From: Paludibacter sp.
GTDB taxonomy: Bacteria; Bacteroidota; Bacteroidia; Bacteroidales; Paludibacteraceae
Direction: 5' to 3'
Assembly (NCBI GenBank): GCA_024710005.1
Contig: JANJVQ010000024.1
Coordinates: 62,001 to 126,000, forward strand
DNA: 64,000 bases
Of the stretch, positions 1,247 to 12,718 are shown one piece after another. The stretch's first letter is position 1. Each line of letters opens with the position of its first letter. The position numbers were made by a program, and so were the translations under genes. The notes under the pieces were generated by a model. The model saw only the letters and a list, made by a program, of their open reading frames with translations. It had not been told where the DNA came from and did no database searches.

Positions 1247-4200
1247 ATGCACTTTAACGAAGATGCCCGTGTGAAGATACCCGCCTTGTTACATTTGGTG
1301 CGTTTGGGATATTCCTATATTCCCCGCGATGAACATGAAAATCGCAATGAAGACAATAATATATTTCCGGAAATTTTCAAAGCAAGTGTGGCCCGACTGA
1401 ATCCCGGGATCTCTGAAATTGAATTAGATAACCTTTACAGTGACCTCCATTTGAAGTTGGACTTTGATGATTTGGGAAGGGATTTCTATGAGACTTTGTC
1501 GGCTGGCACTGGATGGAAATTGTTCGATTTTCAGCATCCTGAGAAAAATAGCTATCATGTTACCACTGAACTAAGCTGTAAGAATGGCGATGAAGAATTC
1601 CGACCGGACATCACCCTGTTGATTAACGGGATGCCGCTGGTGTTTATCGAGGTGAAGAAACCCAACAATAAAGAAGGGATTCTGGCAGAGCGGAAGCGAA
1701 TGAACGAACGTTTTGCCAATAAGAGATTTAAACGCTTTGCCAATATCACACAGCTGATGATTTTTTCCAATAATATGGAATACGAAGATGGTGTGATAGA
1801 ACCTGTGCAGGGTGCATATTATGCTACATCGGCCTACTCTGATATACATTTCAATTATTTCAGAGAAGAAGAAAAACTGAATCTTACGGCTTTACTTGCT
1901 CCGGAAAATGAACAAACGGAAAATCTGATTCTGAAAGACAATAACATTGTCAGCATCAAGTATTCCGACGAGTTTAAAACCAATAAAGACTACAACAAAC
2001 CCACCAACCGGCTTATTACCTCACTACTCAGTAAAGAACGACTGGCTTTTATGCTGAAATATGCCATTGCTTATGTGGAAGAAGAGGAAAATAAAGTAAA
2101 AGTTTTACATAAGCATGTAATGCGTTATCCTCAGATATTTGCTACTAAGGCCATTGAACGAAAGCTGGAGGAAGGTCTGCGAAAGGGGATTATCTGGCAT
2201 ACGCAGGGTAGCGGAAAAACAGCGCTGGCATACTACAACGTACGGTTTCTGACGGATTATTTCCAGAAGAAAAATATTATACCCAAGTTTTATTTTATTG
2301 TTGACCGTATTGATTTGGCCGATCAGGCGACAACCGAATTTAGCAAACGCGGTTTGATAGTCAAGAAGGTAAGTTCCCGCACCGAATTTCTGCAGGATAT
2401 AAAAACGATTGCACCGATACACAACAACCACGGAAAGCCGGAAATATCGGTCATCAACATACAGAAGTTTACGGAAGAATCAGTAGTTCGCAACGATATT
2501 GATTATGACATAAAAGTACAACGCGTTTACTTTCTGGATGAGGCTCACCGAAGTTATAACCCGAAAGGCAACTACTTAGCCAATCTGGTAAATTCTGATA
2601 AAAGCGCCATTCAGATTGCGTTGACAGGTACGCCCTTGCTGCGCGATGTGGTCAAAGATTTTGATTCCAAAGCCTTGTTTGGTGACTATATCCACAAGTA
2701 TTATTACAATATGTCCATTGCCGACGGTTATACCCGCCGGTTGATTCGTGAAGCTATTGACACGAATTATAAAATGCAAATGGAGGACATTATCAAGCAG
2801 ATAATGGTTGTGAAAGGCGATATTTCGACCAGTGAGATATTTGCACATAAACAGTTTGCGTACCCCATGCTGGATTATATCCTGAACGATTTGCAGCAAT
2901 TCAGACATACTGAACGGGACAATTCGCTGGCAGGAATGGTGGTTTGCGACAGTTCGAAACAAGCCAAAGCGCTGTTTAACCGATTCGAGGAAATCTATGG
3001 TAAGCAGGAAGAGGAATTATACATGGTTGCTGAACCGGAGCCGGAATACGGCATTCCGAAAAAGAAACTCAGGGCTGCACTGATTCTGCACGATATAAAC
3101 GACAAGCAATACCGGAAAGACCGGATTGAGGAGTTTAAAGCCGGCAAGATTGACATTCTCTTTGTGTTTAATATGTTGCTGACAGGTTTTGATGCCAAGC
3201 GTTTGAAAAAACTCTATCTGGCACGTGTGGTGAACGACCATAACCTGTTGCAAACACTCACGCGTGTCAACCGCCCGTATAAAAAGTACATGTACGGTTA
3301 TGTGGTGGATTTTGCCGATATTACTTCGGCTTTCGAGAAAGCCAACTACAATTACCTGAAAGAATTGCAGGGCGAACTGGGCGACGAAATGGAAAGTTAC
3401 AGCAATCTGTTTAAAAGCGAAGAAGAAATTGCTACCGAAATTGAAGAAATAAAAGATACATTGTTCAGGTTTGATACGAAGAATGCAGAACTGTTCAGTT
3501 CACAGGTATCGGATATCAAAGACCGCAGGACAATGCTCGACCTGATAAAAGCGCTGCAAAATGCCAAAGAGCTGAAAAACCTGATTCGTTTTCAGGGCTT
3601 GGATGACCTGCTGAAACAGCTTGATTTCAATAAAATGGGTCAATTACTGTTGGCAGCACAGGCGCAGTTGGATAAACTGAATCTGATTGATGCCATTCAG
3701 AACGAAGCCGACATTACCAATCTGCTGAACGAAGCCTTGGAAGAAGTGATTTTTACTTTTACCAAGATTTCAGAAAAGGAACTGATTATTGCCGATGCCC
3801 TGCGCGACCAACTAAAACGCACCCGCGAAGCCATGCTGGATAACTTTGACACCAAAGACCCACAGTTTGTAACGCTGAAAGAAGAACTGGAAAGGCTGTT
3901 CAAAAAACGGAATTTAGACGAGATATCGCAGGAAGAAATGAGCGAGAATATCCATTTATTGCAGGATATTTACAACGAGGTAAGCCGCCTGAACCGCGAA
4001 AACAATCTGTTAAAGGCCAAGTATGAGCATGATGAAAAATATGTGCGGGTACATAAACGCCTGATGGAAAGTAAAAAGTTTAGCGAGACAGAGCGCAAAC
4101 TGCACGAAGCATTGATAGAAGTAAAACATATAACAGACGAACGATTATTGAGGGATAAAAATGTATTGAGAAACGAAGCGTATTTTAAAAACGAACTGAT

Positions 4201-4324
4201 GACCTATGTCATACAGCAATTTATTGACAAGAGCCGGATAGCGCTCGATGTAAAAACAACAGACCAAATCAATCACCTGATAGTGAATGAGTATTACAAC
4301 GATTACAGAGGAATAAGATTATGA
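1247..4324 (+). CDS. hsdR: Type I restriction enzyme R subunit (HsdR)
   Basis: The motor and nuclease subunit of a type I restriction-modification complex; with HsdM and HsdS it translocates DNA by ATP hydrolysis and cuts unmodified DNA. The 1025-residue protein has the N-terminal PD-(D/E)XK nuclease (Asp121, then Glu135-Val-Lys137 in the segment around FIEVKK), the helicase Walker A TQGSGKT at about 319-325, a DEAH box at about 431-434, motif III LTGTPL near 459 and a motif VI-like LTRVNRP further on. A long helical C-terminal region, presumably the HsdM/S docking part, follows. Length is normal for the family. It overlaps hsdM by 4 bp (ATGA), so the two are co-translated. All nuclease and helicase motifs look intact. 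Confidence 0.95.
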   Translation: MHFNEDARVKIPALLHLVRLGYSYIPRDEHENRNEDNNIFPEIFKASVARLNPGISEIELDNLYSDLHLKLDFDDLGRDFYETLSAGTGWKLFDFQHPEKNSYHVTTELSCKNGDEEFRPDITLLINGMPLVFIEVKKPNNKEGILAERKRMNERFANKRFKRFANITQLMIFSNNMEYEDGVIEPVQGAYYATSAYSDIHFNYFREEEKLNLTALLAPENEQTENLILKDNNIVSIKYSDEFKTNKDYNKPTNRLITSLLSKERLAFMLKYAIAYVEEEENKVKVLHKHVMRYPQIFATKAIERKLEEGLRKGIIWHTQGSGKTALAYYNVRFLTDYFQKKNIIPKFYFIVDRIDLADQATTEFSKRGLIVKKVSSRTEFLQDIKTIAPIHNNHGKPEISVINIQKFTEESVVRNDIDYDIKVQRVYFLDEAHRSYNPKGNYLANLVNSDKSAIQIALTGTPLLRDVVKDFDSKALFGDYIHKYYYNMSIADGYTRRLIREAIDTNYKMQMEDIIKQIMVVKGDISTSEIFAHKQFAYPMLDYILNDLQQFRHTERDNSLAGMVVCDSSKQAKALFNRFEEIYGKQEEELYMVAEPEPEYGIPKKKLRAALILHDINDKQYRKDRIEEFKAGKIDILFVFNMLLTGFDAKRLKKLYLARVVNDHNLLQTLTRVNRPYKKYMYGYVVDFADITSAFEKANYNYLKELQGELGDEMESYSNLFKSEEEIATEIEEIKDTLFRFDTKNAELFSSQVSDIKDRRTMLDLIKALQNAKELKNLIRFQGLDDLLKQLDFNKMGQLLLAAQAQLDKLNLIDAIQNEADITNLLNEALEEVIFTFTKISEKELIIADALRDQLKRTREAMLDNFDTKDPQFVTLKEELERLFKKRNLDEISQEEMSENIHLLQDIYNEVSRLNRENNLLKAKYEHDEKYVRVHKRLMESKKFSETERKLHEALIEVKHITDERLLRDKNVLRNEAYFKNELMTYVIQQFIDKSRIALDVKTTDQINHLIVNEYYNDYRGIRL

Positions 4325-5940
4325 CAGATATACTTTTTATAAATAAAACCAAAGAGCTCATCGACAACCTGAAAAGCGTATGTGCCAATTACGGGTTGGG
4401 AAATGACGGTAATGAATTTAAAATCATTACGCAGGTTTTTCTTTATAAATACATCAACGATAAATTCAGACACGAAGCCAAAAAGCACGAAAAGAAATTA
4501 AAGCAAGCCGATAATTTTCAGGAAGCGTTAGAAAGTCTTACAGATGAAGAATACGGATTTATGGTACGGCGTATTGGTAACAGTTCGCCCCGGTTGCAAC
4601 CTGAACAAACTATTGATTATTTGTTTGGGAAACTGAATGTCGACAATTTTGCCGCCGTTTATTTCGATCCTACCTTGCGCGCCATAAGCGAAGAAAACAG
4701 CGTGTTGTTCTCGATTAAATCTACTTCGGGCGCTAAAGACCTTATGTTCGATCAACTGAGCCAGTTTATATCCGACCCTTCGCAACGTGATGCTTTTTGC
4801 CGGGCGTTGGTGAGCAAATTAGTGGAATTCAGTTTTGAAGATATGTTTAAGCAGAAATACGATTTCTTTGCCACCATATTCGAATACCTGATTAAAGATT
4901 ATAACAGCGACAGTGGCGGAAAATATGCCGAGTACTACACCCCTCATGCTGTGGCACGTATTATGGCGGCTATTTTGGTAAACACCGAAGAGGAATTGCA
5001 CAATGTAAAATGTTACGACCCCAGCGCGGGTTCGGGTACACTGTTAATGAACCTGGCACATGCTATCGGGGAACAGAATTGCAGCATTTTTTCGGAAGAT
5101 ATCTCGCAAAAGTCATCGAATATGCTTCGGTTGAACCTGATATTGAATAACCTGTCGCAATCCATACCCAATGTAATTAAGGGAAATACCATACTGGAAT
5201 CGAAATATCTCAACGAGAAATTTCAGTATATCGTCTCCAATCCTCCCTTTAAATTAGATTTCTCGGAATACAGGGATACAGTAGAAAAAGACAAAGAGCG
5301 TTTCTTCGCGGGTGTACCCAAAGTACCCAACAAGGATAAGGACAAAATGTCGATTTACCTGCTCTTTATCCAACACATAATGTATTGCTTAGACGAGAAA
5401 AAAGGTAAAGCAGCCATAGTAGTACCCACCGGTTTTATCACAGCTCAGAGCGGAATAGAAAAGAAAATACGCGAAGCCATGATAAAACGCCATATTCTGC
5501 GCGGTGTGGTAGGTATGCCGAGCAATATCTTTGCCAGTACGGGTACCAATGTGAGTGTGTTGTTTTTAGACGCCAAAGCCGACAGCAAACAAGTGGTATT
5601 TGTAGATGCCTCCAAACTGGGCACTACCGTGAAAGATGGCAAAAACCAACGCACGTTATTATCGCCAACCGAAGAAGGACGGATTATTTCGGCAATGAAC
5701 AACAAACAAGCGGAAGAAGACTTCTCGGTAGTGGTATCGTACGACCAAATCAAAGAAAAAAACTACTCGTTTAGTGCCGGGCAATATTTCGAAGTGAAAA
5801 TAGAATATGTGGATATTACCGCTGAGGAGTTTGCGGCTAAAATGGAGGTGTTTAAAAGTAATTTAAATAGTCTTTTTGCGGAATCGAGAGCGTTGGAAAA
5901 GGAGATTCAGAAGCAGTTGGGAGGGTTGAAGTATGAGTAA
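4321..5940 (+). CDS. hsdM: Type I DNA methyltransferase M subunit (HsdM)
   Basis: Adenine N6-methyltransferase subunit of the type I system, acting together with HsdS. The 539-residue protein has an N-terminal helical HsdM_N region (about 1-130), SAM-binding motif I DPSAGSGT at 233-240 and catalytic motif IV NPPF at 307-310, the N-x-x-F form typical of N6-adenine enzymes. Start ATG overlaps the hsdR stop; its end overlaps the hsdS start by 8 bp, so the three genes form one translationally coupled operon. Length and motifs are normal, so modification activity is expected. Confidence 0.95.
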   Translation: MTDILFINKTKELIDNLKSVCANYGLGNDGNEFKIITQVFLYKYINDKFRHEAKKHEKKLKQADNFQEALESLTDEEYGFMVRRIGNSSPRLQPEQTIDYLFGKLNVDNFAAVYFDPTLRAISEENSVLFSIKSTSGAKDLMFDQLSQFISDPSQRDAFCRALVSKLVEFSFEDMFKQKYDFFATIFEYLIKDYNSDSGGKYAEYYTPHAVARIMAAILVNTEEELHNVKCYDPSAGSGTLLMNLAHAIGEQNCSIFSEDISQKSSNMLRLNLILNNLSQSIPNVIKGNTILESKYLNEKFQYIVSNPPFKLDFSEYRDTVEKDKERFFAGVPKVPNKDKDKMSIYLLFIQHIMYCLDEKKGKAAIVVPTGFITAQSGIEKKIREAMIKRHILRGVVGMPSNIFASTGTNVSVLFLDAKADSKQVVFVDASKLGTTVKDGKNQRTLLSPTEEGRIISAMNNKQAEEDFSVVVSYDQIKEKNYSFSAGQYFEVKIEYVDITAEEFAAKMEVFKSNLNSLFAESRALEKEIQKQLGGLKYE

Positions 5941-7249
5941 AGTTATCACAGATATTGCTACTGTAATTGATAGTTTACATTCAACGCCTGAATATTCTGA
6001 AGCAGGTTTTCCGATGGTAAGAGTTGTAGATGTAAATAACGAATTCATCAAGTTAGATAAATGCCTAAAGGTAGATGAAGTCACATTTAATAAACACAAT
6101 AAAAATCATATACCACAAAAAGGAGACATTATAATTACAAGAGTTGGATCTTTTGGTATGTTGGGTTATGTAGAAACTGATGAAAAATTCTGTTTAGGTC
6201 AAAATATAGCAATTATACACCCATATTCAAAAAGTAAATATCTATACTATTATCTTTCGTCTCCGTTCTTGAAGAAAAAATTATATAGTAAAATTGGAGG
6301 ATCTGCATATAAATGTATTGGATTGGATGATATTAGAAGGTTACCATATTATGATTCTGGTTTAGATACAGAAAATATTGGTAATATATTATTTAACTTA
6401 GACTACAAAATTGTCTTGAATAACCGCATCAATGCCGAATTAGAAGCGATGGCGAAGACGGTGTATGATTATTGGTTTGTGCAGTTTGATTTTCCCTTCG
6501 ACTTCGCTCAGGGTAAACCAAGTACCGAAGGGAAACCGTATAAGAGTAGCGGTGGTAAAATGGTTTGGAGTGAGGAGTTGAAGAGAAAGGTGCCGGAGGG
6601 GTGGAAAATAAAAAACTTAGAAAGTTTAGGAAACTTCAAAAATGGAGTTAATTATGACCCATCAAACCCAGGCGATGTTGCTTGTCCAATAATTAATGTA
6701 AGAAACATTAGTGCTAGCAGTTATTTCCTAAAAAATGAAGATTTAGATGTAGTCTATCTTAAGGCTTCCGATGTAAGAAAATATGCTGTTCACGAAGGAA
6801 GTATAATAATTGCAAGAAGTGGAATCCCAGGTGCCACCAGATTGATATCAGATATTGCTATAAACACTTTGTATTGTGGTTTTGCAATTCATTACGAATT
6901 AATAGATTTGAGTTTAAAAATACCCATTTTTTTCTTTTTAAAATCAATAGAGCAGCAGATTCAAAATGGTTCTGGAGGAACTATAATGAAAAATGTAAAC
7001 CAAGGAACCTTAAATGCACTTCAGATCGCATTACCAACTAATAATGAAACTATTACAGAATTTAATAAAATTATTGATCCAATATTTGGTAAAATAAACT
7101 TAATACAACAAGAAAACAAACAACTCTCGTCACTACGTGATTGGTTGTTGCCAATGCTGATGAATGGGCAGGTGAAGGTGGGTTTGGGTTATGAAGGAGA
7201 AGTGGAAAGTTTGATGGCGGCGGAGGCGGGGGAAAAGTATGGTAAATAA
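5933..7249 (+). CDS. hsdS: Type I specificity subunit (HsdS)
   Basis: DNA-recognition subunit that sets the target sequence for both methylation and cleavage. The 438-residue protein shows the usual two halves: TRD1 (about 1-150), conserved helical region 1 containing NRINAELEAMAKTVYDYW, TRD2 (about 220-375) and conserved region 2 with SLRDWLLPMLMNGQV. The TRDs are visibly more AT-rich than the conserved regions, a pattern expected if TRDs are exchanged between alleles. A REP-like hairpin (6494-6532) has been read into the linker after conserved region 1. Reading frame is intact, so the subunit should be functional. Confidence 0.93.
   Translation: MSKVITDIATVIDSLHSTPEYSEAGFPMVRVVDVNNEFIKLDKCLKVDEVTFNKHNKNHIPQKGDIIITRVGSFGMLGYVETDEKFCLGQNIAIIHPYSKSKYLYYYLSSPFLKKKLYSKIGGSAYKCIGLDDIRRLPYYDSGLDTENIGNILFNLDYKIVLNNRINAELEAMAKTVYDYWFVQFDFPFDFAQGKPSTEGKPYKSSGGKMVWSEELKRKVPEGWKIKNLESLGNFKNGVNYDPSNPGDVACPIINVRNISASSYFLKNEDLDVVYLKASDVRKYAVHEGSIIIARSGIPGATRLISDIAINTLYCGFAIHYELIDLSLKIPIFFFLKSIEQQIQNGSGGTIMKNVNQGTLNALQIALPTNNETITEFNKIIDPIFGKINLIQQENKQLSSLRDWLLPMLMNGQVKVGLGYEGEVESLMAAEAGEKYGK
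6494..6532. repeat. REP-like palindrome inside hsdS
   Basis: CCCTTCG at 6494-6500 and CGAAGGG at 6526-6532 flank a core starting ACTTCGCTCAGGG. Repeats with the TTCGACTTCGCTCAG core are dispersed mostly between genes in many bacteria. Here the 39-bp unit is an in-frame 13-codon stretch in the linker between the HsdS domains. Confidence 0.5.
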
Positions 7250-7271
7250 TTAAAGAAAATAATATCATTTC

Positions 7272-8192
7272 ATGAAACTATATTCGATTAACAATTCTAA
7301 ATTAAAGAGTTTAGCGATAGATTCCTTTAAACTGGAAAAGGAAATACAAACACTTGTCGAAAACAATCTTGAAGTTCTGTTTAACCTTCAATTCGTAAAA
7401 AGTGAATTCTCCATCAAGAACTTCAGAGTTGACACATTGGCATTCGATACAGAAAACAAGTCGTTTGTGGTTGTTGAATATAAAAAAGGATCAAATTTTT
7501 CAGTTATTGATCAGGGATATACGTATATGTCGTTGATGCTGAACAATAAAGCGGATTTCATTTTGGAGTATAACGAAAAGAATACTACTCAATTGAAAAA
7601 GGATGATGTTGACTGGTCGCAATCAAAAGTTGTTTTTATTTCAACACAATTTACTGAATTTCAAAAACATTCTGTCAATTTTAAAGACGTACCATTTGAA
7701 TTGTGGGAGATTAAGCGATACGAGAATAATCTGGTGGGTATGGTTCAACACAAGAGTAATTCAAATGAAAGTATCTCGATTGTGACAGATAGTCCCGAAA
7801 ATATTGTTTCAAAAGTATCGAAACAGGTAAAGGTATATGATGAAGAATATCATTTAAACTCATCAAAGAATAGACTTGCATGGGTTAATGAATTGTATTT
7901 TGTAATGAAAGAACGAATTTTGAGTTTAGGGGATGTTGAAGTGAAGTATACAGCACAATACGTCAGTTTCAGAACAAAATCGCCCTTTGTTGATTTAATT
8001 TTGTACAACAAAGGAGTTTATACTGTTATAAATATGAAAAGCGGCAGTCTTAACGACCCTGATAATAAGACAAATACCTACGATGGCAAAGGACACTGGG
8101 GTAATGGAGATTATTATGTGATAATTGATGATAAAACAGATATAGATTATGTGATGTTTCTCATTAAGCAATCTTATATCTACCATAGATAA
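7272..8192 (+). CDS. PD-(D/E)XK nuclease-like protein (DUF5655-type)
   Basis: A 306-residue protein. The first 120 residues contain VDTLAFD, then VVVEYKKG, which fit the D...(D/E)-X-K active site of restriction-endonuclease-like folds; the spacing resembles the NucS/DUF91 and DUF5655-associated group. The C-terminal 110 residues (from about RLAWVNELY) fit a DUF5655-type domain with VSFRTKSPFVDLILYNK. It starts 22 bp after hsdS on the same strand and is probably part of the same transcript or defense island. It may be an accessory nuclease; the domain call is from memory of the families and the substrate is unknown. Confidence 0.7.
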   Translation: MKLYSINNSKLKSLAIDSFKLEKEIQTLVENNLEVLFNLQFVKSEFSIKNFRVDTLAFDTENKSFVVVEYKKGSNFSVIDQGYTYMSLMLNNKADFILEYNEKNTTQLKKDDVDWSQSKVVFISTQFTEFQKHSVNFKDVPFELWEIKRYENNLVGMVQHKSNSNESISIVTDSPENIVSKVSKQVKVYDEEYHLNSSKNRLAWVNELYFVMKERILSLGDVEVKYTAQYVSFRTKSPFVDLILYNKGVYTVINMKSGSLNDPDNKTNTYDGKGHWGNGDYYVIIDDKTDIDYVMFLIKQSYIYHR

Positions 8193-8249
8193 ACGTTGTA
8201 AGTTCTTGTAATTTAGTTTGCTACAATAGCCCAATAAACTCATTTTTAT

Positions 8250-9374
8250 ATGCCAAAAACCACATTCACCAGAAAACAATTCTATGATCTTGTTTGGTCT
8301 GAATCGTTGGCAGCAATTTCAAGAAAATACAATATTTCCTATACTTGTCTGCGTGAAGTCTGTACAGAGATGGAAATTCCTATTCCGCCAAATGGATATT
8401 GGTCTAAATTAAAATTCGGGAAACCGGTTGAGGTATACAATTTCAATGAAACGTCAAATGGAAAACAAGAAATCTCATTATGGTTGAAAAGCGACGAGGA
8501 TAGTGAAGAGTATTACTTCACGGATGTCGCTCAAAAAATGAAGAATAAGTCAGAAATCTCAAAAAAAGTCAAATCTTTAGATTTCAAGGCAACAAATTTT
8601 ATATCAGACCCATTAGTTGTAAGAACCAGAGAATATCTTAGTCAAAAAAATGATTATCGAAATTGGATTTATGACTTAAGGAAGAATACGCTTGATATTT
8701 CTGTATCTATAGATATACTACCGAGGGCTCTCGAAGTTATGAGCAAATTTATTCACATGATGAAAGCTTGTGGATATGCTGTAGTTGTGAAAGACAATCA
8801 AACCTATGCTGTCATTAATAATGAAGAATTAGAAATATCACTACGAGAAAAGTCAACACGAATAACTGTAATCGGTCAATCTTGGAACCATACCGACTTA
8901 AAACCTAACGGCAAACTTGTTTTGAAATACCAAAAAAGTTATTATGGAAAAGAATGGGTCGACAACAGTGTTTTAATTGAAGATCGTTTATTAGATATAA
9001 TCAGTACTCTCGAATTAATTGCCCTTAAAAAGAAAAATGAAAGAGAAGAGCTTGAAAAGTATAGGGCAGAGCAAAGACGACTTGAAGCAATAATAAAAGA
9101 ATTACAAGCAAGAAAAGAGAATGAACTAAAAAACTTCAAAGATACATTTCTACTTGCTAATCGTTATCAGAAAGCCAATGATTTACGGAACTACATTCAT
9201 GTCTTTGAGCAAAATGCAATAAAAAATAATTCATTAACTGATGAAAAACAAAGCTGGATTGAATGGGCACGTAAAAAAGCTGATTGGTATGACCCATTTA
9301 TAAATGCAAAAGACGAATTATTGGAAGATGTTGATAAAGATAGTCTTACATTTAAAAGTCAAAATCGTTGGTAA
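8250..9374 (+). CDS. HTH/coiled-coil protein of unknown function
   Basis: A 374-residue protein with no signal peptide. Residues 1-60 look like a helix-turn-helix: VWSESLAAISRKYNIS then TCLREVC, followed by IPIPPNGYWSKLKFGKP, a PP-x-GYW-x-K motif seen in a family of uncharacterised bacterial proteins. The middle (about 110-240) is mixed alpha/beta and ends with an SYYGKEWVDN segment. Residues about 265-305 are highly charged and form a likely coiled coil rich in E, K and R. It follows the DUF5655-type gene by 57 bp. DNA binding is inferred from the HTH. I cannot assign a function; its place in a defense island suggests a defense or regulatory role. Confidence 0.7.
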   Translation: MPKTTFTRKQFYDLVWSESLAAISRKYNISYTCLREVCTEMEIPIPPNGYWSKLKFGKPVEVYNFNETSNGKQEISLWLKSDEDSEEYYFTDVAQKMKNKSEISKKVKSLDFKATNFISDPLVVRTREYLSQKNDYRNWIYDLRKNTLDISVSIDILPRALEVMSKFIHMMKACGYAVVVKDNQTYAVINNEELEISLREKSTRITVIGQSWNHTDLKPNGKLVLKYQKSYYGKEWVDNSVLIEDRLLDIISTLELIALKKKNEREELEKYRAEQRRLEAIIKELQARKENELKNFKDTFLLANRYQKANDLRNYIHVFEQNAIKNNSLTDEKQSWIEWARKKADWYDPFINAKDELLEDVDKDSLTFKSQNRW

Positions 9375-9545
9375 ATTTGAAATGAACAGTTACAAATTAG
9401 CATTTCATAAAATGTAATGTATCCCCCCCATTTTAACTAAAAGAAACGTTACCATTTGATAAAATGATTGAAAAGCTGAATTCAATTATTGTTCTTCAAG
9501 AATATTTTCATAGCTTTGGAAAAAATATTACCTTTGCGTCCGTTT

Positions 9546-9959
9546 ATGAGAAGTTTACAAAGTAAAGCAGAGATAAACCTTGATTCTGCTGAAGTTTTAC
9601 ATACAAAAGGATATTATCCATCGGTAGCTCATTGCTCTTATTATAGTTGTTTTCAGTTGGTAAGGCATATTTGGCTCAACTCTTTAGGTAAAACCGAAAG
9701 CGAATTGAAGCAATTAATTGCATCATTCAAAGACAACAAAGCTGTGGAAAAAGGCAGCCACGATGATTTGATAAATCAAATAGCAACACACATAAAGTTG
9801 AACAATGAAGGTGATTTTCGTGTTTTTAATAATAACATTGGGCAACTAAAAAGATTAAGACATTCTGCAGATTATGACGATGTGGGCTTTTCATTTCAGG
9901 AAAGCGAAAAATCAATATACTTGTCAAAATTAATCAGACCTGTTTTAAAAAGATACTAA
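9546..9959 (+). CDS. HEPN domain protein (UPF0332-like)
   Basis: About 137 residues, all-helical. SAEVLHTKGYYPSVAHCSYY and the C-terminal LKRLRHSADYDDVGF match the HEPN fold, particularly the UPF0332-like group with its R-x-x-ADY motif. HEPN proteins are often RNase toxins or nucleotide-binding partners of MNT antitoxins. An in-frame TTG at 9489 would add 19 residues, but ATG 9546 gives a start at the family's usual first helix. TACCTTTG at 9529-9536 looks like a -7 promoter box, which would leave an almost leaderless message from 9546. Only 1 bp separates it from the next gene. First gene of the HEPN-unknown-SecB-Panacea-toxin cassette. Confidence 0.75.
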   Translation: MRSLQSKAEINLDSAEVLHTKGYYPSVAHCSYYSCFQLVRHIWLNSLGKTESELKQLIASFKDNKAVEKGSHDDLINQIATHIKLNNEGDFRVFNNNIGQLKRLRHSADYDDVGFSFQESEKSIYLSKLIRPVLKRY

Positions 9960-9960
9960 G

Positions 9961-10437
9961 ATGACTCCCAAAGAATATATCGTTATTGAACTGAAATCAT
10001 TTATTAATGATTTTCCGCAGACCCGTGTCCGTTACGAACATGATCTTTCTTCTGAGACACATTTTGTCGAAGTTATTCCAAATCAAATTTATCACTTGGA
10101 TGCTGATTATGTAAAATGGGAATGTAATTTCTTTGACAATTTTATAAATTTGTTCCCTTCAGAAAATGTATGTTTTATTTCTGATGATGCGATTGTAGGT
10201 TTGCAAAATATCGATTTTGAAATCTATGGAAAAGAATTTGTTTCACCATTTACAGTTAATTCAGGAGTAATGTCATTGCTCGATGATTGGATACATGCAA
10301 GCTCTTTTGTAAAAGGAGCTGATCTACACAATGTCAGTTTCTGTTTTGAATCAAAATCTGAAGTAATTAATACGCTCTCTAATGGAACTCATGCAGATCG
10401 TGTTAGTTGTAATGATGGTTTACCCTTAGCCGCATAA
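9961..10437 (+). CDS. Unknown 158-residue protein in HEPN/SecB cassette
   Basis: A 158-residue acidic protein with no signal peptide, no membrane segment and no catalytic motif that I recognise. It is rich in Phe, Asp and Asn in its central part (WECNFFDNFINLF). It sits 1 bp after the HEPN gene and 1 bp before the SecB-like gene, so it is surely translated with them. By position it could be an antitoxin to the HEPN protein or a client that the SecB-like chaperone holds; that is inference from context only. Confidence 0.65.
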   Translation: MTPKEYIVIELKSFINDFPQTRVRYEHDLSSETHFVEVIPNQIYHLDADYVKWECNFFDNFINLFPSENVCFISDDAIVGLQNIDFEIYGKEFVSPFTVNSGVMSLLDDWIHASSFVKGADLHNVSFCFESKSEVINTLSNGTHADRVSCNDGLPLAA

Positions 10438-10438
10438 T

Positions 10439-10837
10439 ATGGAAGAAAAAAAAGAATTAGAGTCAGGTTTCCGTATTCAGAATATTCTGTTAATCGAGAG
10501 TTCGTTTTCTCGAATTCTTACAGTTATATTCGACAATCCTGACATTAAACAGGAAGCGAATGTTGAAGTAAATGTTTCGATTAATGAAAATATTGTTTCT
10601 GTTACGGTAAATTTATTATACAAGCAGGTGCTCAATGAAATTGAGCAGGTTTCGGCTAAGATTAGCATGATTGGTGTCTTTGAAAAATTTGGTGATTCGC
10701 CGCTTAATTTAGAACAATTTGGGAAGGTAAATGGTGCTGCAATGATTTATCCATATATCAGAGAGCACTTTACAAATCTTGCTGTAAAAGCTGGTATTGG
10801 TCTTATTTTCTTGCCGCCGGTAAATTTGACAAAATAA
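10439..10837 (+). CDS. SecB-like chaperone of a toxin-antitoxin module
   Basis: A 132-residue protein with the SecB fold pattern: four beta-strand blocks, then IYPYIREHFTNLAVKAGI followed by LPPVNL, which corresponds to the SecB segment with FPYAR...LPPVNF. True SecB is about 150 residues and mostly proteobacterial; short SecB-like proteins in other phyla are typical partners of toxin-antitoxin-chaperone (TAC) systems, where they protect an unstable antitoxin, as Rv1957 does for HigA1 in Mycobacterium tuberculosis. It lies 22 bp upstream of a Panacea antitoxin gene. Assigned as a TAC chaperone and not as a general export chaperone because of this context. Confidence 0.8.
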   Translation: MEEKKELESGFRIQNILLIESSFSRILTVIFDNPDIKQEANVEVNVSINENIVSVTVNLLYKQVLNEIEQVSAKISMIGVFEKFGDSPLNLEQFGKVNGAAMIYPYIREHFTNLAVKAGIGLIFLPPVNLTK

Positions 10838-10859
10838 AGTAAAACTAAATTATGTTGTT

Positions 10860-11426
10860 ATGGATTTAGGGATGACTGCAAATAAAGATCTTATTGGCAA
10901 TCTGATTATCTATATTGCTGATAAATGCAAGCCTTTGTATCACACGAAACTTCTTAAAATTTTGTATTTTATTGATGAAGTTGCAGTACAAGAGAAAGGT
11001 TCTCCAATTACCTGGTTAGAATACAGTGTATGGGGGAAAGGTCCTGTATCTAAGGAAATTTATTTTTCAAAAGTGGATAATTGCAACCCCTTTGATTCTT
11101 ACTTCACCATTTCGAAGAAAAATAATAATGCATATCAAATAATACCTAAACAGGTTTTTGACAAATCAGAGTTCAGTAAAAAAGACATCGAAATTATTGA
11201 TCATGTAATTGATCTGTACGGAAAAAAAACATCTGATGAGTTAATAGAATTGACCCATGCCAAAGGTTCATTATGGAGCAATATTGTTGAAACAAAAAAC
11301 ATCAAATTTTCAAAAGAAAATACCACGAGTGTTTACTCAATTAATTTTGCAGACCTGATAAAAGATGATACTATGAAGTCTTTGTCATATTTTATAGCCA
11401 GAGAAGATCTTGCTTGTAAAGTATGA
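10860..11426 (+). CDS. Panacea (DUF4065) domain antitoxin
   Basis: A 188-residue protein of the DUF4065/SocA-like Panacea family, the versatile antitoxin domain that neutralises many unrelated toxins. Family marks are LYHTKLLKILYFIDEVAVQ and, about 25 residues on, WLEYSVWGKGPVSKEIY, which matches the typical 'Y..W..GPV...IY' motif. The C-terminal part (YGKKTSDELIELTHAKGSLW) matches the family's 'T.....PW'-like end. It is followed by a gene overlapping by 4 bp (ATGA), the normal antitoxin-then-toxin order, and preceded by a SecB-like chaperone gene. Start ATG 10860 chosen; Met at residue 4 is also possible. Confidence 0.87.
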   Translation: MDLGMTANKDLIGNLIIYIADKCKPLYHTKLLKILYFIDEVAVQEKGSPITWLEYSVWGKGPVSKEIYFSKVDNCNPFDSYFTISKKNNNAYQIIPKQVFDKSEFSKKDIEIIDHVIDLYGKKTSDELIELTHAKGSLWSNIVETKNIKFSKENTTSVYSINFADLIKDDTMKSLSYFIAREDLACKV

Positions 11427-11896
11427 TATATCCTCGGGGTTCAATTATCAAAATAAAAGAATTTCCTTTACCACAGGGACCGAAGGACAAGTATTTTATT
11501 GTAATTGATTGCATAGATGATAAATTGTATAGCTTATTGGCTATGACAACCACCAATAAGTCAGGATTTTATTTTGATTTGTCCGCAATTAACCTCAAAT
11601 ATGGTTCTTTAGCTTACTTGAACGAATCTAATTTCATGTTTTGTTTTCCTGCAGATTTTATTATAGGTATAAATGGTTTTAGTTTTTGGGAAGACACATT
11701 CTTGTTGTCAAACACATGCTTTAGAGATTATGAATGTGATCGATTAGAAAAATTGAATCCGAATTTACTTGATACGCTAAAAACTAATGTGCTGAATGAT
11801 CTCGTTTATTGTTTGTATAAATCTGATTTGACGAAATATAAATATAAATCCATACTCGAAAATGTTTTGGTTGAGTTGAATCCGGCAAAAATGTAG
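11423..11896 (+). CDS. Probable toxin paired with the Panacea antitoxin
   Basis: A 157-residue protein translationally coupled to the Panacea gene by an ATGA overlap. The N-terminus RGSIIKIKEFPLPQGPKDKYFIVID recalls the SH3-like barrel of PemK/MazF toxins, where a GDI-like strand precedes a K-x-(R/Y)-x-x-x-V strand, but the catalytic pattern of MazF is not clear. The second half is not recognisable. Genes directly after Panacea antitoxins are usually the toxins. Toxin role is inferred from position and size; the molecular target is unknown. Confidence 0.65.
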   Translation: MIYPRGSIIKIKEFPLPQGPKDKYFIVIDCIDDKLYSLLAMTTTNKSGFYFDLSAINLKYGSLAYLNESNFMFCFPADFIIGINGFSFWEDTFLLSNTCFRDYECDRLEKLNPNLLDTLKTNVLNDLVYCLYKSDLTKYKYKSILENVLVELNPAKM

Positions 11897-11902
11897 TCCT
11901 CC

Positions 11903-12718
11903 ATGCACTTCCACATCCTCCAACCATCCCCATTCCTCCGAAACTACATCCGGCATTATTGCTTTATGGAAGCGGGTGCTGCGGAAGGCAACATCATGGA
12001 AAGGGTTATCCCGACTGAGAACGTGCAGTTGATGTTTCACTATGGAAATCCTTTTGAGGTACATAAACCGGACCTGACAGTCATCCGGCAACCCCGTTCT
12101 ATTATCAGCGGACTATCGAATAACTACGCCGATGTTACAACGATGGGGGAGGCAGGAGTCGTGTTTGTCAGTTTTTATCCGGCAGGAGCCTGTCATTTCT
12201 TCCCGTTTCCGCTGTCTGAAATTGAAAATATGGATGTTGATTTGTCTGATATTTTTAATGCTGAAATCAGGGAGGTGGAGGAAAAGCTTTTTCAGACAAG
12301 TTCAATGGAAGAAAAGAAGGTTGTAATAGAAAGTTTTCTCATAGGCAGGTTTAAGCCGGTTTTTTCTTACGATAGTTTGTTGATTCACAAGGGTGTTGAA
12401 ATCATCAAACAGAGCAGGGGACAGATATCTGCTCATTTACTTTCTGAGAGATTGGCTGTCACCCCGAAGAGTCTGGAAAGAAAATTCGCGGACAGAATCG
12501 GTAAAACACCCAAGCAATTCATCAAATTGATTCGTTTTCAGGAAACGTTGAAGGATTTCAGTATGAATAAACACATCAACCTGACGGAATATGCTTACCG
12601 GAACGGGTATTTCGACCAGTCGCATTTTATCCGTGATTTTAAATCTTTCTCCGGATACACTCCGAAAGAATTTTTCGCGAAATATCCGGAATTCAATATT
12701 CAGGCGGATTGCGTGTAG
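11903..12718 (+). CDS. AraC-family transcriptional regulator
   Basis: A 271-residue regulator. The N-terminal 150 residues match the DUF6597-type sensor domain (LRNYIRHYCFMEA, then VIPTENVQLMFHYG, and SFYPAGACHFF). The C-terminal 100 residues carry the two AraC HTHs: LSERLAVTPKSLERKFADRIG and YAYRNGYFDQSHFIRDFKSFSGYTPKEF compressed in the usual spacing. It starts 6 bp after the toxin gene but is an ordinary regulator more likely tied to the following uvrA-like gene or to itself. The start ATG at 11903 gives the standard length. Confidence 0.88.
   Translation: MHFHILQPSPFLRNYIRHYCFMEAGAAEGNIMERVIPTENVQLMFHYGNPFEVHKPDLTVIRQPRSIISGLSNNYADVTTMGEAGVVFVSFYPAGACHFFPFPLSEIENMDVDLSDIFNAEIREVEEKLFQTSSMEEKKVVIESFLIGRFKPVFSYDSLLIHKGVEIIKQSRGQISAHLLSERLAVTPKSLERKFADRIGKTPKQFIKLIRFQETLKDFSMNKHINLTEYAYRNGYFDQSHFIRDFKSFSGYTPKEFFAKYPEFNIQADCV

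Follow-up and report, generated by a model that had tools for sequence, protein, structure and literature searches.

Toxin-antitoxin-chaperone (TAC) systems are the described systems closest to the locus presented here. In the HigBA-SecB (Rv1955-1957), MqsRA and HicAB TACs, a C-terminal extension of the antitoxin leads to chaperone addiction, and two-component relatives are devoid of the extension (available parts of PMC5105189 and PMC8165232). In CmdTAC (PD-T4-9) from E. coli, a toxin, an antitoxin and a SecB-like chaperone are encoded in that order; the antitoxin has an LAA end and a disordered C-terminal part, it is protected by the chaperone, and ClpP clears CmdA (PMC11618068, PMC9519451, both in the sections available). 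Several endoribonuclease families are mentioned as TAC toxins in the accessible part of PMC11618068, which does not name HEPN, and no description of a HEPN-based TAC was found in the literature searched.

The locus analysed lies in a 64,000 nt stretch of a Paludibacter sp. contig, referred to as the window. Its features are as follows.

9489..9518, + strand: candidate Bacteroidota-type promoter (TTG-N19-TAGCTTTG) upstream of the trio, a weak regular-expression match
9546..9959, + strand: HEPN-domain protein, proposed toxin, 137 aa from the ATG at 9546 (PF05168, E=6.6e-7)
9961..10437, + strand: proposed antitoxin of an undescribed family, 158 aa, found between HEPN and SecB in homologs
10237..10434, + strand: C-terminal extension of the proposed antitoxin, about residues 93-158 (start approximate), a proposed chaperone-addiction segment
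10426..10434, + strand: terminal Leu-Ala-Ala codons of the proposed antitoxin, proposed ClpXP signal
10439..10837, + strand: SecB-like chaperone, 132 aa (PF02556, E=5.3e-7; PADLOC PD-T4-9_C, E=3.5e-7)
10860..11426, + strand: Panacea (DUF4065/SocA-like) antitoxin, 188 aa (SocA_Panacea PF13274, E=4e-22), separate neighbouring module
11423..11896, + strand: 157-aa Panacea partner, proposed toxin, without a Pfam family, separate neighbouring module

The ORF coordinates agree exactly with the five same-direction genes and the gaps of 1, 1, 22 and -4 bp that were read earlier from the sequence alone. The neighbouring type I restriction system of that reading is also confirmed, at 1247-7249 of the window, and its HEPN, SecB-like and Panacea assignments are right, with all three Pfam matches above family cut-offs. 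TTG-N19-TAGCTTTG is a promoter consensus of Bacteroidota type; as the pattern occurs eight times on the window's + strand, the candidate before the trio is weak. It should be noted that the HEPN ORF has an alternative start, a TTG at 9489, which would lengthen the protein by 19 aa. The locus lies in a low-GC defence island beside the restriction system. The cassette is more than a chance arrangement: dozens of Bacteroidota loci contain the first three genes together, and the last two are found as a pair at other loci. The explanation that we consider probable is that HEPN, the 158-aa protein and the SecB-like chaperone form a toxin-antitoxin-chaperone module of HEPN type (HEPN-TAC), and that the Panacea toxin-antitoxin pair behind it is independent.

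A HEPN trio and a separate Panacea pair

Two surveys were used to determine which genes travel together. The first was anchored on SecB and covered 393 same-order genomes with 41 SecB places. The 158-aa family is directly upstream of SecB in 17 of these, and the 158-aa gene is in turn preceded by HEPN in 15 of the 17, by a HEPN fragment in one (L065) and by a contig end in one (L075). The second survey was anchored on HEPN and comprised 66 loci, with 65 antitoxin genes that have room for a downstream SecB. In this set the 158-aa family accompanies HEPN in 66/66 loci and SecB is called after 55/65 antitoxin genes, while Panacea genes are present in 5/66. Two-gene units of HEPN and the middle protein, with neither SecB nor degron, also exist. 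Judged by gene order and sequence, the HEPN gene, the 158-aa gene and the SecB-like gene are one recurrent unit with TAC architecture, i.e., three adjoining genes in the same direction, the third of which encodes a SecB-family chaperone.

A profile of 17 SecB-like family members matches solved SecB with E=3.8e-8 and Rv1957 with E=7.2e-4. The gene is the only SecB-family match in its own 3.24 Mb genome, which would suit a cell export chaperone located beside the HEPN pair by chance. Such a role is scarcely credible, as any SecB match at E 0.001 is present in only 37/393 same-order genomes, and SecB accompanies the HEPN pair in 17/41 places and, in at least seven others, CmdT-like genes. When viral sequences were scanned with the SecB alignment, 12 loci were returned.

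The last two genes behave differently. In the nine other loci of the 157-aa family, Panacea is directly upstream of the 157-aa homolog in seven, the remaining two being at contig ends, and homologs of SecB, HEPN and the 158-aa protein are found in none of the nine (within the stretch searched). Panacea occurs near SecB in one of the 41 SecB places, which is the window itself. Thus Panacea and the 157-aa gene are a separate pair, independent of the HEPN trio. The pair resembles PanAT in that a Panacea antitoxin adjoins a small gene whose product is the putative toxin (PMC8832971, accessible part). It differs from PanAT in that the 157-aa partner has no Pfam family, and similarity to MazF/PemK was not found in a weak test (hhalign against a PemK alignment made from 5 of 15 PemK proteins found). 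The 157-aa protein had no match in PHROGs or NCBIfam. Viral scans with the Panacea and 157-aa proteins gave no useful lead, nor did plasmid searches with the HEPN, 158-aa, SecB-like and 157-aa proteins of the window and the HEPN of one relative.

The sequence-only reading had combined the SecB-like, Panacea and 157-aa genes into a TAC module and regarded HEPN and the 158-aa protein as a possible second toxin pair sharing the chaperone. A TAC-type module is indeed present, but the chaperone partners HEPN and the 158-aa protein (17/41) and not Panacea (1/41). The adjoining, same-direction genes of the window speak for the earlier grouping, as does the diversity of toxins that Panacea neutralises, according to the part of PMC8832971 available. 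However, besides the single SecB place with Panacea and the absence of SecB at all nine other 157-aa loci, the -AA tail is on the 158-aa protein and is absent from the window Panacea protein, which ends -CKV and shows no degron-like tail. A TAC of SecB with Panacea was therefore rejected as very improbable.

A true two-toxin cassette, in which one SecB-like chaperone governs both modules, should also be considered. The Panacea pair adjoins the trio above chance and in two gene orders. In the window the two modules are tightly adjacent; in two Flavobacterium genomes the order is reversed, with a Panacea and 157-like pair immediately upstream of HEPN-antitoxin-SecB (gaps of 9 and 12 bases in L104, and of 9 bases followed by an overlap in L103). 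The five HEPN loci with Panacea, or three after merging of near-identical pairs, compare with about 0.05 expected. Against this, 61/66 HEPN loci have no Panacea match within the flank, other Panacea and 157-aa pairs are without SecB, the window Panacea lacks a degron-like tail, and defence genes cluster without functional links. The shared chaperone is improbable on this balance. Because Panacea pairs occur without SecB (0/9), and because the -LAA tail is carried by the 158-aa protein and not by Panacea, the proposal of one chaperone common to two toxins is left unsupported.

The HEPN protein and its 158-aa partner

Fifteen aligned HEPN homologs display ten invariant residues, including H29, Y32, Y33, Q37, H72, R105, D109 and Y110. 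RxxxxH is the active-site motif of canonical HEPN ribonucleases. This motif is absent from the aligned sequences, which show a conserved RxxxDY instead, with H29 and H72 invariant, and because the canonical motif is missing an RNase activity is unsure. The window HEPN protein has no PADLOC match. Split HEPN genes occur in 7/66 loci and split middle genes in 0/66 (Fisher 0.013), although some of the split HEPN genes may represent assembly errors. That HEPN is broken more often than the middle gene fits HEPN as the harmful part, and we infer that HEPN is the toxin and the 158-aa protein its antitoxin.

The antitoxin family is not related to described families in the searches made. Neither the 158-aa nor the 157-aa protein has a Pfam family at E<=1 or a PADLOC match, and the 158-aa protein gave only chance-level matches in PHROGs and NCBIfam (E 0.062 and worse). 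In the Pfam matches listed for 63 homologs, each family is matched by at most four of them, and the best E is 0.0067. The predicted model has a domain of about 90 residues (residues 1-92) with elements in the order H-E-E-H-H-E-E. Model confidence is 93-98 over residues 1-90 but drops to 46-58 over residues 101-158, the latter section being nearly without secondary structure; a firm folded domain with a disordered tail is thus predicted. When the model was compared with the PDB by Foldseek, 467 matches reached E<=10 and none reached E<=0.001. As no match is significant, the fold is uninformative on function; the highest-ranked hits, at a non-significant E of 0.13-0.2, are KhpB/Jag-type RNA-binding proteins.

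CmdTAC has the same gene order as the trio, and the window chaperone matches its PADLOC profile, but CmdT is an ADP-ribosyltransferase, and the CmdTAC antitoxin is a helix pair with a disordered part (in the published sections available), whereas the window antitoxin domain is predicted to be mixed helix-strand. Membership in CmdTAC/PD-T4-9 was ruled out, since the gene in the toxin position encodes HEPN, for which PADLOC gives no match. The HigBA-SecB, MqsRA and HicAB TACs likewise have a C-terminal antitoxin extension, but their toxin and antitoxin families differ from those of the trio. HEPN-MNT also places a small HEPN protein beside a presumed neutraliser; its defining feature is AMPylation by MNT. 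No nucleotidyltransferase family is present among 25 of the 30 weak Pfam matches listed for the 63 homologs, and the fold search retrieves MNT chains with E values no better than noise (6m6w, E 0.91; 7ae2, E 1.6). HEPN-MNT identity was rejected on these grounds.

The trio could also be real without HEPN being the toxin; HEPN would then be a partner that binds RNA or has a regulatory role, with the labile, chaperone-controlled protein as the effector. The missing RxxxxH and a middle family with no known relatives by sequence or fold, whose best fold matches, though not significant, are to RNA-binding proteins, are in keeping with this. The excess of broken HEPN genes speaks against it, as does the persistence of HEPN and middle-protein pairs without SecB or degron, which is what a plain toxin-antitoxin pair would show. 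We regard this alternative as unlikely and retain HEPN as the inferred toxin.

The antitoxin tail and host tmRNA tags

The conserved domain is followed by a tail of 33-100 residues in SecB-linked homologs and of 17-33 in SecB-less ones, apart from L150, whose tail has 74 (Mann-Whitney 1.5e-5, L150 included, the rows not being independent). The antitoxin thus has a C-terminal extension that chaperone-free relatives lack. The window antitoxin ends in LPLAA, a C-terminal signal that appears to be of ClpXP type. An -AA end is found in 50/55 SecB-linked antitoxin homologs, the exceptions being L093, L095, L097, L132 and L145, compared with 1/10 without a called SecB (Fisher 5.8e-7) and 0/525 other ORFs. 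The sole SecB-less copy with -AA is L150, where a weakly SecB-like protein comes next. On the tree the SecB-less state needs six changes (five without L150). In five independent pairs, -AA goes the same way as SecB in a mean of 4.4 (all rows) or 4.9 (without L150), a test that rests on just these five pairs, with median p 0.125 and 0.0625, respectively. ClpX and tmRNA are both found in the Paludibacter genome. We propose from these patterns that the tail is a chaperone-addiction segment ending in a ClpXP signal.

That TAC antitoxins carry a short LAA signal is already published (PMC11618068, available part). In the HEPN trio the similarity can extend to the complete tmRNA tag of the host, which is present at the antitoxin end in 8 of 50 cases with the host tag read, and these include unusual tags (GENNYAMAA, GERTYAMAA, GNTQYAMAA, GNDYNYALAA). 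The own-host suffix sum is 221, against a shuffled mean of 159 and maximum of 194, and 0/20,000 shuffles reach 221, with relatedness ignored. The sum is 212 (shuffled 151) when two rows in which no SecB was seen are left out, and 129 (shuffled 87) among hosts with tags other than GENNYALAA. The match is far from general: in 28/50 fewer than five terminal residues are common to antitoxin and host tag, the own host tag is the strictly best match for only 8/50 antitoxins, and the window antitoxin has only LAA in common with its host tag, GETNYALAA. Recent copying of the tag at the DNA level was ruled out, as the eight full-tag antitoxins differ from the host tag codons at 3-9 of 30-33 bases. Similar ends are carried by TAC antitoxins of at least one family unrelated to that of the trio: ADESYDYTLAA in L059 (host tag DESYDYALAA) and ENNYALAA in L080 (host tag GENNYALAA).

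A tentative explanation, which we hold as possible though not the likelier case, is that the antitoxin is disguised as a ribosome-rescue product. Selection would hold the tail equal to the host tmRNA tag, the setting of the module would follow chaperone supply together with ssrA/ClpXP traffic, and the same mimicry would have arisen in the unrelated TAC antitoxins as well. Under this reading the tail sometimes includes the alanine supplied by tmRNA itself. No report of full tmRNA-tag mimicry was found in the literature searched. Phage repressors and integrases have genome-encoded -AA degrons akin to the tmRNA tag (PMC8092301, accessible part); there the tag is removed by integration, whereas that of the HEPN-trio antitoxin is proposed to be hidden by the chaperone and can equal the whole host tag.

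Proposed mechanism and significance

In the HEPN-TAC model, HEPN would block growth through RNA cleavage or binding, and the middle protein would neutralise it. The tail would make the antitoxin aggregation-prone and a substrate of ClpXP, and the SecB-like chaperone would bind the tail and probably hide the degron. By analogy with CmdTAC, a phage protein or other unfolded clients may draw the chaperone off, leaving the antitoxin exposed. It would then be destroyed through the signal that also marks ribosome-rescue products, and HEPN would stop the cell.

The locus would thus extend the chaperone-addicted systems to a toxin of HEPN type and to an antitoxin family that is as yet undescribed. Among its relatives, chaperone and degron are gained or lost together, which provides a natural experiment. 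Host-matched tmRNA tags lead to the testable idea that such switches make use of the degradation pathway of ribosome rescue. A small protein encoded before a SecB-like gene and ending in the host's own tag may serve as a sequence handle for chaperone-controlled antitoxins from unknown families.

The five genes and their surroundings

The five genes are found where the sequence-only reading had placed them, with spacing of 1, 1, 22 and -4 bp, and its HEPN, SecB and Panacea assignments are confirmed, all above Pfam cut-offs. Pfam, PADLOC, PHROGs and NCBIfam gave only chance-level matches for the 158- and 157-residue proteins. The type I restriction system alongside is also present, and a candidate defence gene lies between it and the cassette.

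1247-7249, type I restriction system with restriction, methylation and specificity genes
7272-8192, PDC-S18, candidate defence gene by PADLOC (E=5.8e-117), partly HSDR_N_2-like
9546-9959, + strand, HEPN gene (proposed toxin)
9961-10437, + strand, 158-residue protein (proposed antitoxin)
10439-10837, + strand, SecB-like chaperone
10860-11426, + strand, Panacea protein
11423-11896, + strand, 157-residue protein

The six 1-kb bins covering window positions 6001-12000 have a GC content of 31-33%, and the remaining bins of the first 20 kb one of 39-48%, with the exception of the first bin (33.5%). Because of this difference from most flanking bins, the base composition suggests that the low-GC stretch is an acquired island. 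The SecB of the window is the sole SecB in this genome, which also encodes ClpX. The same genome has another Panacea protein on contig C20, a longer one with a 336-residue open frame (loci L002 / L021; L-numbers denote homologous loci).

Gene partnerships in three surveys

All SecB-family matches in 393 same-order genomes gave 41 places in 37 genomes, window included; the other 40 were taken with flanks as contigs allowed, and profiles built on the five window proteins were run against them. The 158-residue family is immediately upstream of SecB at 17 of the 41 places (the window, L014, L053, L054, L056, L057, L058, L061, L065, L066, L067, L073, L075, L076, L077, L081 and L083). HEPN lies upstream of the 158-residue gene in 15 of these 17, L065 having a HEPN fragment and L075 a contig edge, and 16 of the 17 middle proteins end in Ala-Ala (-AA), a ClpXP-type signal, with L076 ending in -LTV. 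Panacea is found at one SecB place, that of the window.

Many of the other 24 SecB places display an ADP-ribosyltransferase-like gene and a short protein, an arrangement with antitoxin and SecB that a passage of a 2020 paper already mentions (PMC7159879). Ten toxin-side proteins from these places were run through PADLOC; seven match PD-T4-9_A, the model for the CmdT-type toxin of the E. coli toxin-antitoxin-chaperone (TAC) system CmdTAC, at E 0.01 or better, and those of L055, L084 and L087 show no such match. A third kind of upstream pair precedes SecB in L084, L087 and L088, with first genes that start VKRKC or VEREC; the two tested had no PADLOC match, and the pair is possibly another undescribed TAC family. 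In L069, L078, L082 and L090, CmdT-like operons have the order short protein, SecB-like, ADP-ribosyltransferase-like (L078's alone was PADLOC-tested), and only one of the four short proteins ends in -AA. In L052, apparently a fusion, the SecB domain belongs to a reading frame of 363 residues.

The HEPN-anchored set consists of 61 loci from Bacteroidota contigs and 5 from viral contigs; it shares several contigs with the SecB-anchored set, and the counts are not additive. The 158-residue family is present in 66/66 loci, including L107, where the HEPN and 158-residue profiles match a single frame cut off by the contig end. The HEPN nearest to that of the window is from a Paludibacter MAG (L091, 74% identity). 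The five IMG/VR viral contigs (L152-L156) carry the HEPN, antitoxin and SecB trio, and all five antitoxins end in -AA. Chitinophaga silvatica (L108) has three tandem pairs of HEPN and 158-family genes without SecB, the third HEPN being split.

The 157-residue family was searched in 295 same-order genomes, with 7 loci beyond the window's, and as a profile in 198 genomes of the phylum, with a further 2. Panacea is immediately upstream in 7 of these 9 loci, the exceptions, L007 and L013, lying at contig ends. None of the nine showed SecB, HEPN or the 158-residue family in the 1.8-3.4 kb searched or, for six, in stretches of 3.4-18 kb also searched.

By these surveys, the cassette is a trio (HEPN, 158-residue protein, SecB) plus a separate pair (Panacea, 157-residue protein). 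The proposal that SecB, Panacea and the last gene form the TAC is thus not upheld, with Panacea near SecB at the window alone and SecB found in none of the nine other 157-family loci. From the idea of a two-toxin cassette around one SecB, the HEPN-158-SecB association is retained, and sharing by the Panacea pair is unlikely. HEPN and the 158-residue gene are mostly accompanied by SecB, which is called with 55 of the 65 antitoxin genes in the HEPN-anchored set that leave room for it.

Panacea is found in five HEPN-anchored loci, L100, L102, L103, L104 and L114, or three if near-identical pairs are merged (Poisson 1.6e-5). About 0.05 is expected in the 454,794 bases of the HEPN-anchored set. This estimate takes the 74 Panacea matches counted across 198 same-order genomes, 2 of them in the window's own genome, and a rough mean of 3.7 Mb per genome; it uses a Pfam profile for the genome rate, and the profile applied to the HEPN loci was derived from the window protein. 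In Flavobacterium L103 and L104, Panacea, a 157-like protein, HEPN, antitoxin and SecB are all on one strand; the 157-like proteins are remote from the window's (19-21% identity, 28% in a three-row alignment). Clustering in defence islands explains the adjacency of Panacea and the trio, and a functional link between the two is possible.

The proposed antitoxin's tail, SecB and the host tmRNA tag

The 158-residue protein of the window ends LPLAA. Among 65 antitoxin genes of the HEPN-anchored set with room for a next gene (L094, L107 and L138, at contig ends, excluded), 50/55 with SecB end in -AA vs 1/10 without a called SecB (10 copies, 8 loci; Fisher 5.8e-7). The SecB-linked exceptions are L093 and L097 (-KAS), L095 (-LTV), L132 (-AAS) and L145 (-CGV). 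L076 / L095 is Seramator thermalis, whose SecB-linked antitoxin has -LTV in place of -LAA. The sole -AA antitoxin without a called SecB, L150, is followed by a weakly SecB-like protein (8.2 bits against the SecB profile); leaving it out gives 50/55 vs 0/9. The same loci contain 525 further ORFs of 90 codons or more (all frames, many not genes), and none ends in -AA. Past the conserved domain, the tail runs to 33-100 residues where SecB is present vs 17-33 where it is not, apart from L150 (74).

On a tree of 75 conserved domains, with few columns and many weak forks, the SecB-less state requires 6 changes, or 5 without L150. In five independent pairs, too few to reach p=0.05, -AA tracks SecB in 4.4 on average with all rows and in 4.9 without L150; the opposite direction averages 0.0, although a few of the 200 all-row pairings contain one opposite pair.

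The AlphaFold2 model of the window protein (63 homologs; mean pLDDT 79, pTM 0.63) places a confident domain, in the order helix, two strands, two helices, two strands, at roughly residues 1-92, with block means of 93-98 as far as residue 90. The tail starts near residue 93 and shows almost no secondary structure, its block means being 46-58 past residue 100. Foldseek against the PDB gave nothing at E 0.001 or better; the top, non-significant matches were 3gku, a probable RNA-binding protein (E 0.13), and KhpB/EloR 9lrg (E 0.19), with MNT antitoxin chains only at E 0.91 and 1.6. The protein is thus predicted to be a folded domain with a disordered extension. The same pattern is published for TAC systems, where, in a passage of PMC5105189, a C-terminal antitoxin extension confers chaperone dependence. 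The CmdTAC antitoxin, CmdA, is likewise described, in part of PMC11618068, as having an unstructured C-terminal part that ends in LAA, a ClpXP signal. Three antitoxins of four CmdTAC-like operons (three plasmids and one phage, gammaproteobacteria) end in -AA and one in -KVA.

The antitoxin ends were compared with the tag peptide encoded by the host's own tmRNA. In 30, 29 and 29 host genomes searched (that of L134 outside these sets) there were 27, 22 and 24 confident tmRNA matches; ARAGORN read a tag from 72 of 73 loci, the miss being G488, and three assemblies are present twice. Fifty antitoxins counted as SecB-linked, including L150 and L138 where SecB was not seen, have a host tag. At least five terminal residues are common to antitoxin and tag in 22/50, and the whole tag is present in 8/50: GENNYALAA in L014, L056, L111 and L113, GENNYAMAA in L115, GNTQYAMAA in L133, GERTYAMAA in L143 and GNDYNYALAA in L075. 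The alanine ahead of the tag peptide is supplied by the tmRNA itself, and seven of these eight antitoxins (all except L113) have it too.

In 20,000 shuffles of tags among hosts, which do not model relatedness of rows, the observed suffix sum of 221 was never reached (mean 159, maximum 194). Without L138 and L150 (48 rows), 21 share at least five residues and 8 the whole tag (sum 212 vs mean 151, maximum 185); 34 rows with tags other than GENNYALAA give 129 vs mean 87, maximum 117. The full-tag state takes 8 changes on the tree for 8 carriers, and thus appears scattered and not inherited once. In the eight cases, 3-9 of 30-33 bases differ between the antitoxin codons and the tmRNA gene, which places the match at the protein level. 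There is counter-evidence, however: 28/50 antitoxins have fewer than five residues in common with the host tag, the host's own tag is the top match, ties included, in 38/50 but strictly best in only 8/50, and the window antitoxin matches GETNYALAA, the tag of its host, in LAA only. The five SecB-less rows for which a host tag was read, from four genomes, each have 0 residues in common with it. At the 14 of 24 other SecB places with a tag read, the protein just before SecB ends in -AA in 10, and two are close to the host tag (L059, ADESYDYTLAA vs DESYDYALAA; L080, ENNYALAA vs GENNYALAA).

Toxin assignment and proposed mechanism

HEPN frames are split in 7/66 HEPN-anchored loci (L102, one of three copies in L108, L114, L133, L146, L147 and L149; a partial match in L101, away from its intact gene, is excluded), against 0/66 with a broken or incomplete 158-residue gene (Fisher 0.013). 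SecB is partial in 2/56 loci: L146, where the partial gene belongs to the trio, and L094, where a weak match precedes the trio. A toxin can be lost without harm and an antitoxin cannot, so that this difference favours HEPN as the toxin, although some breaks may be assembly errors. The RxxxxH motif is absent from HEPN across 15 aligned homologs, which share ten invariant residues including H29, H72, R105, D109 and Y110; the family profile matches the solved HEPN entries 9xbd (E=8e-9) and 9xbc (E=8.5e-8). In the titles, abstract starts and some passages of the open-licence literature, no paper was found on a HEPN-based TAC or on antitoxins with the host's complete tmRNA tag.

CmdTAC offers a model for the trigger, as its chaperone is described in part of PMC11618068 as drawn off by the T4 capsid protein, and a similar diversion may operate here. 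Beyond the sequence facts, we infer every step. In the resting cell, HEPN would most likely be held by the antitoxin, with the antitoxin tail lodged in the SecB-like chaperone. Diversion of the chaperone would then most likely make the -AA tail accessible to ClpXP, the antitoxin would be degraded, and HEPN would halt the cell.
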